Shown here: piece by piece, positions 1,592 to 26,586 of the stretch
Position numbering within the stretch: position 1 is the first letter of the stretch
Layout: each line of letters starts with the position of its first letter
From: Puniceicoccaceae bacterium
Lineage (GTDB): Bacteria > Verrucomicrobiota > Verrucomicrobiia > Opitutales > Coraliomargaritaceae
Assembly: GCA_017854655.1 (NCBI GenBank)
Contig: JAFMHF010000013.1
Coordinates: 1 to 37,648, forward strand
Length of the DNA: 37,648 bases
Reading direction: 5' to 3'
Notes under the pieces: model-generated
Seen by the model: the letters and a program-made list of their open reading frames with translations, nothing else
Databases searched by the model: none
What the model was told of the DNA's origin: nothing
Translations under genes and position numbers: made by a program

Positions 1592-4516
1592 TTACTTAGT
1601 TTTGAACAGAGGGTTTGAAGTAATAATGTGGATCATATCACGCATTCGGTAATTAGTATACTGAGAACGGTTCACCATCGCAAGGACCGCTTCCTCATCA
1701 GAGAACTCCATCGTGCGACCAAGGCCGTAGGCGGTCATCGATTCGATCATCTCCTTGGCCAACTTGTGTTTTTGGGTTTTAAGCAGGGCCTTTAAATGAT
1801 CGAGGTCACGATAAATCATGCCACTCACCAATTTACCGCTTTCTTGGATATTAATATCATCTTTGCCGACTGGTTCCGTATCGCGCCAGCGGCCAACTGT
1901 ATCAAAAATCTCTAGCCCAAATCCCAACGGATCCATCCGGCTGTGGCAGGATGCGCACGCTGCTTGAGATTGGTGTCGCTGGACCATTTCGCGATTGGTC
2001 AGTGGCTGCTTGGATGCACTGCTAAGTTCGGGGACATTCGGCGGTGGTGGCGCGGGCTTATCATTGAGTAATTTCTCAAGAATCATCGCGCCGCGAATGA
2101 CAGGTGAGGTGCGCTCGCCATTTGAACCCATGGTCAGGAATGCGCTTTGACCGAGTAAGCCGCCGCGTGGGGAGTTCCAGTCCAATGCAATCTTTTGAAA
2201 GGCATTCGGGTCCTCTGAGCGAGTGATCGGCATACCATAATAGTCAGCCAGCAGCGAGTTAGCGACGATGAATTCTGAATCAATTAAATTCGTAATCGGC
2301 AGATCTTCGCTCACTAAAGTCTTATAAAATTCGACGACTTCACGGTAGGCAGAGTAGCGCACACCCGAATTAAATAGATAGTATTGGTTTTCATCGACCG
2401 TGATTGCTTGGTAGCGGTCTAAGTCGCCCCATTGGCTGGAGAACCCTTCGTAAAAGGCCTCCGATTTCCAGTCCGTCAGCATGCGATTCACTTGGCCCTT
2501 CAATACCTTGGGGTCGGACAAGGATCCATTTTCAGCAAACCGATACAGCTCCTCGTCTGGGAGACTGCTCCAGAGGAAATATGCCAGCCTGACTGCAAAC
2601 TCTCGATCACTCAACTGGCGGTCCTTCGTGCCTGATCCGACTTCTTCTAAATATAGAAAACTAGGGGAGGCCAAAACGACCGCGATTGCCTCACCCATTG
2701 CTTGATTGAAGTTTTGCCCGTTCGCCCGATTCTCCTCAAAAAATGCCATTAGGCTGTCAATGTATGCCGGTTCAGGTTGCTTGTGGCGGAATGCTTGGTA
2801 GGCGAATCGCTCGATGAACTCCCGTGCATTGTCATCTGAATTCAACGAACTGCTGTAGCGCGATGCACCATCTTTAGCATTGATCAGTTCACCGAAGAAA
2901 TTGGTCTGTTGCCGGTAGAATGGCCCCTCGATTTCGAGCCAATCGACCCAGACGGCGGCCCAAGCTCCCGGCTTATCCACCAGCTTAATGTATTTGGAGA
3001 CCCCACCGTTGATTTCAGGTCGATTCTCATAGATGGTTAAATTGTGACTATTATCTCCAAAGCGAAGCCTCCTCAAGAGTTCGACTTCACTTGGTTGTCT
3101 GTCGGTGCCGTCGAGTTTGAAAATGCCGACAACGCCATCAACAGAATCCAGTTTTAAATATTTTCGCACTTCCGGCGCTCCCTCGACCGCACCGCCATTG
3201 ATGCGAATACGGTAACTAGCGCGAATGTCCGGATTACGTTCAAAGTTCACACCTATACGTGCGGAATTTCGAACATCGGCAAAATAAAACGCCTTATCTA
3301 CCAACGGATATTCCAGATACTTGACTGGCTTATCATAATCGAAGCGCTGTCTAAAGTAGATCTTCATATCTCCCGCGTCTTGAAATCCGATTTCTTGCCA
3401 GGTTTTGCCTGCATCCAGCATCTGCTTCTTACGCTTAAATTCGGCCACTTTTGCGCGGAGTCTTGCGGTGTGCGGGTTCTCTGGCTCTATTCGTTTATTC
3501 GTATTTTTTGCCAGCGGTCGGCCAGACCACTTAAATCCTTGTTCCACAATTTTTTTGCCCAGCTCGAAATACTTATCGAAATCATTGGCACTGAAGAATT
3601 GCTCTTCACCCACCGTATCAAATGAGTCTGCTTCAGCGTCGGGAGGGATGATGTGCGGTGAGATCTCAAAGCCGAATAAGTCACGAATGGTATTGGCATA
3701 TTCACGCTGATTGAGTCGGCGCATGGTGATTTCTCCGCCATTTGCGGTTAATCGCTTACGCGCGTCAACCAATGAGCGAGTCAATGAATCCAACACGTCG
3801 ATTAATTCCTGGTTCGACGGTTGAGGCTCGTCTTCTGGTGGCATTTCACCGCCGTTCAAAACATCTAGTACATCCTGCCAGCGTTGGGCGGCATCGTTGG
3901 TGGTGATTTCCCAGTGCACTTGATCGAATCGCAACTGACCTTTTTGCTTTTCCGAGCCATGGCACTGCATGCAATGTTGCTCCAGGAATGGCTGGATAAT
4001 TTCTTGCGAGAGAGGTGTGCCCTCGACCAGTGAGTCCAGATCTTGTTGGAATGAGTCACTTTGGTCTGCCAGCAGCTGAGAGGTATCTTCCAGTTCGGCT
4101 TTGAGTGAGCTGACAAATGCCGCTAGTTGAGCGGCATCAGGCCTGGGCTCCTCTTCAGGCGGCATTTCACCGTCTTCCAAGACAGTCAGTACCTCCGACC
4201 AAAATTCAATCGAATCGCGCCCGTCCAGACTCCATGAAGCACTGTCAAAGCGAACCTTGCCCTTTTGCTTATCTGGACCATGGCAGGCGATACAGTTTGC
4301 TTCAAGAAAGGGCTCAAGCTCCGATTGTAGAAATGGTGGGTGCTCCTGTGGGGCGGTAGGCGCAACGACTACCAGCGGCGGCTCTTCAATGATGACCGGC
4401 TCACTGCTTGGTTCTAACGGCGCGCTGGTAGTAGTTTGATTCGACCAATACACATAGCCCCCCACGCCTGAGACGAGTGCGAGTGTTAACAATATGGACG
4501 ATTTGCCGGGTGACAT
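1592..4516 (-). CDS. Membrane-anchored multi-heme DUF1592/DUF1588 family protein
   Basis: From the ATG at 4516 this is 974 residues with an N-terminal hydrophobic anchor (about residues 8-23) and a Pro/Glu-rich linker. A TTG at 4543 would add nine residues; I prefer the ATG because the anchor then sits at the N-terminus. Two successive planctomycete-type cytochrome domains follow, with CIACH near 75-79 and CMQCH near 182-186, each ending in a GEMPPE-type segment. Next come DUF1587 (MRRLNQREYANTIRDLFG), a carbohydrate-binding-like middle, DUF1592, DUF1588 with a third motif CASCH near 854, and C-terminal DUF1585. Such proteins are periplasmic; redox coupling to polymer or carbohydrate breakdown has been proposed but not shown. 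The DUF1552 gene follows by 12 bp. Confidence 0.9.
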   Translation of the reverse strand: MSPGKSSILLTLALVSGVGGYVYWSNQTTTSAPLEPSSEPVIIEEPPLVVVAPTAPQEHPPFLQSELEPFLEANCIACHGPDKQKGKVRFDSASWSLDGRDSIEFWSEVLTVLEDGEMPPEEEPRPDAAQLAAFVSSLKAELEDTSQLLADQSDSFQQDLDSLVEGTPLSQEIIQPFLEQHCMQCHGSEKQKGQLRFDQVHWEITTNDAAQRWQDVLDVLNGGEMPPEDEPQPSNQELIDVLDSLTRSLVDARKRLTANGGEITMRRLNQREYANTIRDLFGFEISPHIIPPDAEADSFDTVGEEQFFSANDFDKYFELGKKIVEQGFKWSGRPLAKNTNKRIEPENPHTARLRAKVAEFKRKKQMLDAGKTWQEIGFQDAGDMKIYFRQRFDYDKPVKYLEYPLVDKAFYFADVRNSARIGVNFERNPDIRASYRIRINGGAVEGAPEVRKYLKLDSVDGVVGIFKLDGTDRQPSEVELLRRLRFGDNSHNLTIYENRPEINGGVSKYIKLVDKPGAWAAVWVDWLEIEGPFYRQQTNFFGELINAKDGASRYSSSLNSDDNAREFIERFAYQAFRHKQPEPAYIDSLMAFFEENRANGQNFNQAMGEAIAVVLASPSFLYLEEVGSGTKDRQLSDREFAVRLAYFLWSSLPDEELYRFAENGSLSDPKVLKGQVNRMLTDWKSEAFYEGFSSQWGDLDRYQAITVDENQYYLFNSGVRYSAYREVVEFYKTLVSEDLPITNLIDSEFIVANSLLADYYGMPITRSEDPNAFQKIALDWNSPRGGLLGQSAFLTMGSNGERTSPVIRGAMILEKLLNDKPAPPPPNVPELSSASKQPLTNREMVQRHQSQAACASCHSRMDPLGFGLEIFDTVGRWRDTEPVGKDDINIQESGKLVSGMIYRDLDHLKALLKTQKHKLAKEMIESMTAYGLGRTMEFSDEEAVLAMVNRSQYTNYRMRDMIHIITSNPLFKTK

Positions 4517-6821: not shown

Positions 6822-7667
6822 GTGACACGTTTTATTTCATTTCTATGCCCGTGGCTACTGCCGCTGTTCGCCATGGCAAGCTCAGCGCCAGAGGTTGCAC
6901 TACGCTTGGTCGATGGGACGTATCGCCCGGGGGATATGCTTGAGCTGCAAGCCGAGATGCGTGGGGTGGACTATGCCGAGTTTGAATTGCATGTGCCTGC
7001 CAACACGCAGTGTCACTTCGTGACGCAGACACGTGAGCCCGTGCGCTACGTTGAGGGTGTTTATGTGCAGCGTGTCTTGTTGCAACTGCAACCGCTGAGC
7101 GCAGGAGACTTTGAGCTGAATGACATTACTGTGACGATTGCGCAAGGTGGCGAGGTGAGGGACGTCGCATTGCCGACGGTGTCGTTTACTGTCGCGACGT
7201 ACGCGGCCGAGGATAGGTCGGAGGCAGCTGCCGAGTTGGGCGCAGGTGCATCTTTGTTAGCTCAGGCGTCGAACAATTTGCGCATCATTATTGCGGTGTT
7301 GTTTATTGTTTTAATGGTTGTCTGGTGGTTGTTGCGTAAGGTGAATACAAAGCCAGTGAAAACCGCTGAGATCGAACTGGGTTTGAGTGATTTGATTGTG
7401 GCCTTGGAGGGAAACGCTCCGTCGTTTCCACCATGCGAACCTGACGAACGGAAACGACGGAGCGTTGGCTCGAAGAGTGTCGCTACGCTCGGAACCCTCC
7501 ACGGGGGCTCGGAGCTGACCTCCATGATGATTGCTGAGCAACTGTTGGAGCGAGCGGACCTTTCAATGTCGTCGGCCTTGCGTAAGGATTTAGAAGCGGC
7601 AGTCTACGCGAATCGTTTGAATTCGGGCGTGTTGTTACAGTTGCTGCGAGAGGAGGTTCAACGATGA
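6822..7667 (+). CDS. Bat-operon membrane protein carrying in-frame repeat insertions
   Basis: The protein has 281 residues and a GTG start. A signal peptide occupies about residues 1-19. A beta-rich periplasmic domain follows to about 140, then one membrane helix near 151-170 (IIIAVLFIVLMVVWWLL) and a cytoplasmic tail. Its position between DUF58 and BatA is where DUF4381-type genes are often found, and the last 35 residues (LSMSSALRKDLEAAVYANRLN) fit that idea, but I do not recognise a named family with certainty. Residues about 196-235, rich in Arg, Ser and Pro, are encoded by hairpin repeat DNA (7404-7510) and look like a later insertion that kept the frame. The stop overlaps the BatA start as ATGA. 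Confidence 0.85.
   Translation: MTRFISFLCPWLLPLFAMASSAPEVALRLVDGTYRPGDMLELQAEMRGVDYAEFELHVPANTQCHFVTQTREPVRYVEGVYVQRVLLQLQPLSAGDFELNDITVTIAQGGEVRDVALPTVSFTVATYAAEDRSEAAAELGAGASLLAQASNNLRIIIAVLFIVLMVVWWLLRKVNTKPVKTAEIELGLSDLIVALEGNAPSFPPCEPDERKRRSVGSKSVATLGTLHGGSELTSMMIAEQLLERADLSMSSALRKDLEAAVYANRLNSGVLLQLLREEVQR
7404..7510. repeat. Inverted hairpin repeats inside a coding sequence
   Basis: AACGCTCCGTCGTTTCC at 7413-7429 and its exact reverse complement at 7450-7466 form a perfect 17-bp inverted repeat with a 20-base spacer. Within it, 7410-7429 is a 7-bp stem (GGAAACG/CGTTTCC) with loop CTCCGT, preceded by GGAG. That is the same plan as the elements at 44-63, 91-110 and 23381-23400. A further stem GAGTGT/ACGCTC, with one G-T pair, follows at 7475-7490, then GGAACCCTCC. 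The reading frame stays open across all of it. Confidence 0.75.
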
Positions 7668-8689
7668 GTTTTCTCTATTTGTGGGTTTTGCTGTTAATTC
7701 CGCTGTTGCTATGGTTACTGCGCGGACGTTTGCGTCGCACTTCATTGCAAGTGTCATCACTCGGGCTATGGTCTGATGTGGATGCCGGACGTGCCCGCTA
7801 CTTATGGATTCCTGTATTTTTGCGCCGTATGACTTTGGTCTTATTGCTACTGGCGTTGGCACGCCCACAGGCGGGTTCAACTTACAGCATGAATGTCTCC
7901 GAGGGCATCGCGATACAACTGCTGGTTGATGTGTCGAGCAGTATGGATATGAATGTGCGCGATCTTGACGGCCAGAATCGCAGTCGCATGGAAGTGGCCA
8001 AGGAGATGGTACAGCGCTTTATCAGTGGCGATGGGGATACGCTACATGGCCGCGGGGAGGACCTTCTGGGGTTGATCACTTTTGCGCGCTATGCGGATAC
8101 ACGCAGTCCGTTGACGTTTGGGCACGATGCGTTGTTACAGATCGTGAGCAGCTTAGAGGTGCAAGAGCGGCCCAATGAGGATGGTACAGCTTATGGCGAT
8201 GCATTGGCACTGGCTGCGGCTCGATTGCAAAACATTGAAGAGCTGCAATTCGGATTAGGATCAGTCGAGGTCGATGCGATTGAGAGTCGTGTAATCATCC
8301 TGCTGACGGATGGTGAAAACAACTCGGGGGCACACTTGCCGCTAGAGGCGGCTGGCTTGGCTAAAGCGTGGGGCTGTCGGATCTATTGTATCAGTTTAGG
8401 GGATACGCGGGTCGGATTTTCTGGTGAGGTGCAGATCGATAAATTGACGGCAGCCGAGCAGACCTTGAAGCATATTAGCGATGAGACCGGCGGTATTTTT
8501 CGACAAGCAACTGACTATGAATCGTTGCTCTCTGTGTATGAAGAAATAGATCGTCTGGAGCGCTCGGATATTGCCACGCGCAGCTATGATCGAGTGGCGG
8601 AGTGGTTCTGGTTGCCATTGGGGTTGGCGCTGCTGAGTTTATTGATTGCGCTACTATTGGAGGCGTCTGTGTTACGTGTCGTGCCATGA
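7664..8689 (+). CDS. batA: BatA-type von Willebrand factor A membrane protein
   Basis: The protein has 341 residues. Two hydrophobic segments at the N-terminus (about 4-20 and 54-66) are followed by a VWA domain with the MIDAS motif DVSSSM at 89-94 and a LTDGENNSG segment further on, then a C-terminal membrane helix near 306-332. This is the normal plan of BatA/BatB proteins of the Bacteroides aerotolerance type: the VWA domain binds a divalent metal and is exposed outside the cytoplasmic membrane or just under it. The start overlaps the preceding stop and its own stop overlaps the next start, both as ATGA, so translation is coupled through the Bat cluster. Confidence 0.92.
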   Translation: MSFLYLWVLLLIPLLLWLLRGRLRRTSLQVSSLGLWSDVDAGRARYLWIPVFLRRMTLVLLLLALARPQAGSTYSMNVSEGIAIQLLVDVSSSMDMNVRDLDGQNRSRMEVAKEMVQRFISGDGDTLHGRGEDLLGLITFARYADTRSPLTFGHDALLQIVSSLEVQERPNEDGTAYGDALALAAARLQNIEELQFGLGSVEVDAIESRVIILLTDGENNSGAHLPLEAAGLAKAWGCRIYCISLGDTRVGFSGEVQIDKLTAAEQTLKHISDETGGIFRQATDYESLLSVYEEIDRLERSDIATRSYDRVAEWFWLPLGLALLSLLIALLLEASVLRVVP

Positions 8690-23374: not shown

Positions 23375-23450
23375 CATTGCGGACGAGGCGGAGCTCGTCC
23401 CTCCCAAATGAGGCATGACAGGTTCTGGGAGGGATCACCTGCGCGTGGTC
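23375..23450. repeat. Inverted pair of REP-like hairpins upstream of the BaiN-like gene
   Basis: The hairpin at 23381-23400 (GGACGAG/CTCGTCC, loop GCGGAG) is followed by CTCCC and matches 85-115 at 29 of 31 bases. A second, more degenerate element in the opposite direction lies at 23433-23450: stem GATCAC/GTGGTC with one G-T pair, loop CTGCGC, preceded by GGGAGG. The pair sits in the 191-bp gap between the BaiN-like gene and the kinase-like gene, close to the end of the latter (stop at 23459). It could serve as its 3' end structure. Confidence 0.7.
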
Positions 23451-26397: not shown

Positions 26398-26437
26398 GTT
26401 AGATAGTGAGAGTTAAAAAGGGAGACTGCAAAGCGGA

Positions 26438-26493
26438 GGGCTGAGACTTGAGGGCTGAGACTTGAGAGCTGAGACTTGAGGGCTGAGAGTTGA
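26438..26493. repeat. Four tandem 14-bp repeats upstream of the ABC-F gene
   Basis: The unit GGGCTGAGACTTGA occurs four times head to tail (26438, 26452, 26466 with one change, 26480 with one change), followed by a decayed fifth unit GAAATGAGAGAGTGA. It lies about 40 bp upstream of the ABC-F start, in the gap after galM, and would be in the leader or promoter of the ABC-F gene. Confidence 0.85.
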
Positions 26494-26586
26494 GAAATGA
26501 GAGAGTGAATGGCGACAACGCCGATCGCTGCCAATAATATTCAACCTCAGATTTCGCCAATCGCTAAGCAGCGACCCTGCAATACA

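Follow-up and report, generated by a model that had tools for sequence, protein, structure and literature searches.

Palindromic repeats lying in frame within protein-coding genes are already known from two bacterial groups. The Rickettsia RPEs (Ogata et al. 2000, 2002) occur in frame in unrelated protein genes, to which each adds a short peptide, and they are described as elements of about 150 bp or, for RPE-4/6, as CGTC-tagged (PMC10969869, PMC3733652). In Opitutus terrae (BMC Genomics 2013 14:522), REP monomers and dimers are reported inside many ORFs, and most intragenic dimers or groups are said there to encode 20-30 amino acids (PMC3733652). DNA repair genes figure among the targets in that account, both uvrA genes being hit at two sites each, and the tag is given as GTAG, with GTGG in most GTAG-20 elements (PMC3733652).

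Here we describe a further, well-resolved example, found in a stretch of 37,648 nt from a Puniceicoccaceae bacterium (hereafter, the window). Very probably, a REP/BIME palindrome inserted into the linker of a Bat-operon gene, kept the reading frame, is translated as a disordered linker, and is mostly tolerated. Like the O. terrae GTAG REPs, as far as their report describes them, this repeat family belongs to a host of the Verrucomicrobiota (Opitutia), enters ORFs, and has a uvrA or uvrA-like gene among its targets. The tag here is GGAG, neither GTAG nor GTGG/GYAG, and the loop is CTCCGT; we set the two families apart by their description, and they may be identical. Beyond the O. terrae report, the present case resolves which orthologues have the repeat and which lack it, and the list of genes that carry such repeats grows by a Bat-operon gene, PurL, a U32 peptidase, and an ArsP-type permease. 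With the RPEs, as described, the family shares insertion in frame in unrelated genes and the gain of a short peptide. It is unrelated to them in sequence, it is mostly intergenic (38 of 44 places in its own genome), and CGTC, which in RPE-4/6 stands at one end of the stem-loop, occurs solely inside the hairpin. What is new is a GGAG-tagged family with six stop-free frames, an orthologue-resolved pattern of presence and absence, and tandem expansion in one species. This is another Opitutia case of a mobile repeat writing protein segments, with several sites resolved among close relatives. Such sites allow the tolerance, decay, and expansion of the peptides to be measured, and they counsel caution against taking such segments for functional domains.

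A composite palindrome in a Bat-operon gene

The host gene (6822-7667, plus strand) lies in a Bat/MoxR operon, flanked by a DUF58 gene and by batA (VWA; 7664-8689, plus strand), with which it shares an ATGA overlap. It encodes a membrane protein of 281 amino acids that has no family match in Pfam or NCBIfam. A first, sequence-only reading of this DNA had reported a perfect 17-bp inverted repeat with a 20-base spacer inside the coding sequence, a CTCCGT-loop hairpin of a dispersed family nested within it, and an intact reading frame; all three observations proved correct. Specifically, the two 17-nt arms (7413-7429 and 7450-7466, plus strand) are 100% complementary across a 20-nt spacer, and the ORF is open throughout despite the palindromic element. 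This is the sole perfect inverted repeat of at least 13 bp in the window (spacer up to 60 nt), and eight first-order Markov simulations of the window produced none of that length, the longest arm being 12. The RNA fold of 7395-7520 is far more stable than those of shuffled sequences (z = -4.35). An Rfam search of the window returned no match.

The repeat is part of a complete composite REP element of 97 nt (7405-7501, plus strand), slightly narrower than the 7404-7510 proposed earlier. Its ends, TGGAGGG and CCCTCCA, recur in intergenic copies, and there are orthologues that do not carry the element. The element is in frame within the host gene, at about residues 195-227. Its first unit (7405-7429, plus strand), recognized by covariation and abundance, consists of a TGGAG tag, a GGAAACG stem, a CTCCGT loop, and CGTTTCC; thus the nested hairpin GGAAACG-CTCCGT-CGTTTCC (7410-7429) stands directly 3' of GGAG. 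This form is the commonest member of the family, accounting for 56 of the 216 units collected. The right arm of the inverted repeat is a partial, inverted second unit, and it is followed by a 35-nt right half (7467-7501, plus strand), GGCTCGAAGAGTGTCGCTACGCTCGGAACCCTCCA, that is identical in loci L002 and L003 of the bacterium's own genome (G000), in L028 of its congener G008, and in L030 of G009. The composite element also occurs between genes, in copies that carry the identical right half.

In the window, the bare motif CTCCGT shows no enrichment (10 occurrences, with 15 expected). The arrangement of GGAG, a 7-bp stem, and a CTYYGY loop is present at four positions (40-63, 91-114, 7406-7429, and 23381-23404) and never arose in 50 simulations. 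Three of these are sister units with GGAG and a CTCCGC loop, located outside the listed ORFs, at 40-63 on the plus strand and at 91-114 and 23381-23404 on the minus strand. One such unit, GGGAG-GGACGAC-CTCCGC-GTCGTCC, exemplifies the same plan of tag, stem, and loop as the unit in 7405-7501.

A dispersed GGAG-tagged repeat family

A BLAST search of the element against its own genome gave 49 matches. When copies of the 25-nt unit TGGAGGGNAAYGCTCCGTCRTTNCC were counted by pattern matching, with the reversed pattern as control, there were 67 units in G000, 86 in G005, 75 in G006, 58 in G011, 40 in G008, 17 in G002, and 15 in G009; the remaining genomes hold 0-8 each, G010 having none, and the control found 0. 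Across the order, 14 of 177 genomes searched had a match, four members of the genus being among the 14.

The family has REP/BIME anatomy: a palindromic, multicopy 25-nt unit with a 5' tetranucleotide, mostly intergenic and found either alone or, in many cases, in inverted (+-) pairs that usually span 55-100 nt. Each unit comprises the GGAG tag, the 7-bp stem, and the CTCCGT loop. Among 30 distinct units, the stem covaries strongly: 29 cells differ on both sides, whereas shuffling gives 12.2 +/- 2.5 (none of 500 shuffles reached the observed value) and slid versions give 1-3. The tag is conserved at 97-99.5% per position over 216 units, a range shaped by a collecting pattern that favors GGAG and allows at most two mismatches. 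GGAG is also the reverse complement of the CTCC in its own loop, and, read directly from the sequence, the unit is free of stop codons in all six frames.

The 67 units of the bacterium's own genome occupy 44 places. Gene context was judged by ORFs and codon score on stretches of 1.5-9 kb rather than from gene annotation, and by these tests no long frame runs through 38 of the 44. The codon-score scan overlooked the Bat site because the host gene stops shortly past the insert. The six intragenic places fall far below the coding density (85-90% coding assumed). Therefore, purifying selection or the choice of target excludes most copies from genes. Elsewhere in the genus, locus L080 (G005:C23:36022-36929) repeats the palindrome pair five times, once every 209 bp, so that the element and its neighborhood form a tandem array.

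In their short tagged hairpins, single or in inverted pairs, and their mostly intergenic position, the units resemble the BIME/REPIN dimers of enterobacteria and pseudomonads. They differ in having GGAG instead of GTAG and in the result of a search for a cognate transposase. RAYT (Y1_Tnp) genes are abundant in the genus, but among the approximately 30 RAYT matches examined with flanks of up to 1.5 kb, none was flanked by the GGAG family; only two of the loci had a GGAG-family unit, in each case single and stray. Two RAYT genes of the own genome, at L068 (G000:C45) and L067 (G000:C93), sit amid arrays of their own GTAG-type repeats and are REPtrons of other families. The GGAG family would presumably be mobilized by a RAYT-type single-strand transposase.

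Presence, absence, and history of the insert

The sequence-only reading proposed orthologue alignment as its check, and the alignment supports insertion: the segment is in frame in the Bat-gene orthologues of G000, G005, G008, G009, and G011, and it is missing from those of G002, G003, G004, G007, G010, and the outgroup G016. None of the orthologues aligned carries the segment in unrelated codons. With bearers such as G005 and G009, the insert is not an artefact confined to a single assembly. The suggestion that a mobile palindrome created a new cytoplasmic peptide thus stands as far as insertion is concerned, on the evidence of the orthologues, the 67 copies of the unit, the intergenic copies of the composite element, and the six other sites described below; that the peptide is made and faces the cytoplasm is what we infer.

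If the segment were ancient and had been lost repeatedly in relatives, this would fit the tree of the part N-terminal to the insert, on which the bearers are not monophyletic; two changes are forced, with G011 standing apart. We regard this reading as very improbable, given that other repeats in the bacterium's own genome match the segment almost exactly and that it is missing from the outgroup G016 as well as from the divergent G002 and G003. Under insertion, the scattered bearers require recombination or independent insertion at one site. Nucleotide identity along the Bat gene is mosaic: G005 matches G000 at 92-100% over nt 421-600 and at 58-88% before nt 421. Likewise, L010 and L012 compared with L009 display near-identical blocks beside blocks of 60-70% along the gene. 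Such mosaic blocks suggest that species of the genus have exchanged parts of the gene by homologous recombination, and some of the insert's movement among relatives was probably by this route.

Insertion was not always a plain addition of length. In G011, a 70-nt element accompanies a net change of about +48 nt, and at one of the UvrA-like sites (site A, below) a 65-nt element accompanies about +42 nt; therefore, either some target sequence disappeared or the ancestral sequence was different. We considered a simple rule governing what is lost from the target site upon insertion and abandoned it, since the sites disagree.

Proposed consequences for the protein and alternative explanations

We propose that a composite REP/BIME-type palindrome of the dispersed family entered a poorly conserved linker of the membrane-protein gene and that the insertion persisted because it altered the length by a net multiple of three and brought no stops into the frame used. 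The insert would then be translated as a disordered cytoplasmic linker of 30-40 residues, running from the membrane helix to the C-terminal helices, and would change by point mutation and in-frame tandem duplication. In an AlphaFold2 model with a mean pLDDT of 63, built from four sequences, the insert corresponds to a stretch with pLDDT below 50 (residues 197-232), one helix stopping at 198 and the next beginning at 234; the model is consistent with a disordered linker. Its placement on the cytoplasmic side is deduced from a single long hydrophobic helix that follows an N-terminal signal-like segment. Foldseek comparison of the modeled protein with the PDB ranked a TRAP translocon subunit and immunoglobulin-like/MHC chains highest at low TM-scores (0.2-0.3), matches that are uninformative beyond a beta-sandwich.

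Translation of the insert is plausible. Over the 39-codon insert region, pairwise dN/dS among G000, G008, and G009, computed from few changes, is 0.27, 0.61, and 0.46; the upstream flank gives 0.20-0.49 and the downstream flank 0.19-0.29, so that by this measure the insert appears no more constrained than its flanks. The G005 insert contains 27-bp units in tandem; as each spans 9 codons, the frame is kept. These units (L012, 2084-2234) encode an ADERQRRSE-type peptide and have the look of the birth of an in-frame minisatellite within a REP insert.

Three further explanations concern what the hairpin or its peptide might do. Were the basic DERKRRSV segment co-opted for binding or localization and held by selection, its retention in five genomes, dN/dS below 1, and the tandem expansion in G005 would all fit. 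We nevertheless think this unlikely: the dN/dS of the insert is no lower than that of the flanks, about half of the orthologues compared are without the segment, and the repeat family, read in two frames, supplies unrelated proteins with other peptides. Most likely, the insert is tolerated rather than selected. Another idea, raised in part by the sequence-only reading, is that the hairpin regulates translation of the coupled batA or the stability of the operon mRNA. The hairpin is indeed very stable and precedes the batA start by about 200 nt, and REPs elsewhere have been proposed to act on mRNA, according to the O. terrae report (PMC3733652). Control of batA was not borne out and is quite improbable because the ATGA overlap is conserved in orthologues with and without the insert and because the hairpin decays while the frame is kept. 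Specifically, pairing is 17/17 in G000 and G011, 16/17 in G008, and 13/17 (Watson-Crick) in G009, and in G005 the hairpin is rearranged. The presence of the same repeat family in unrelated genes likewise argues against a role particular to this mRNA.

Mobile hairpins that ribosomes bypass are known in yeast mitochondria, a precedent for supposing that the hairpin is present in the mRNA and absent from the protein. This supposition is the least credible of all, as the frame is kept in all aligned orthologues, the G005 insert has grown in multiples of 27 bp, and the insert has no stops. An insert that is translated as a disordered linker and mostly tolerated thus remains our preferred explanation.

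Other in-frame sites

Scanning the places of the element in genomic stretches of the genus, followed by translation, revealed six in-frame intragenic sites besides the Bat gene. A UvrA-like gene carries two: site A is occupied in G000, G005, and G011 and absent in G009, G004, and others, and site B is occupied in G000, G009, and partly in G008. An AddA-like UvrD/PD-(D/E)XK helicase/nuclease bears the repeat in six genomes, PurL in G000 and G005, a U32 peptidase in G000 and G008, and an ArsP-type permease in G007. As with the RPEs, then, the repeat is in frame in several unrelated genes, at seven sites in total, and insert-free orthologues are demonstrated for five of these (Bat, UvrA-like A, UvrA-like B, AddA-like, and PurL). 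The peptide read from the unit is EGNAPS or EGCAPS at five sites and GGKRSVV or GGQRSVV at two. Compared with solved UvrA structures, UvrA-like site A gives weak sequence matches only and aligns near a loop of the UvrB-binding-domain/insertion region.

We speculate, with little confidence, that these repeats represent an Opitutia REP class in which the GGAG tag, unlike GTAG with its stop codon, and the stem are stop-free in six frames and the tag is complementary to the loop (GGAG/CTCC). Such a class could act as a recurrent natural source from which core proteins receive disordered peptides in frame, with some of these peptides being retained and further elaborated.

Other repeats in the window

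Two 56-nt stretches (3825-3880 and 4146-4201), 77% identical, lie in a minus-strand ORF of 983 amino acids and match a duplicated C..CHG..KQKG..RFD (cytochrome-like) segment of its product. Between listed ORFs, 26436-26505 is a tandem repeat of a 14-bp unit (GAGGGCTGAGACTT).
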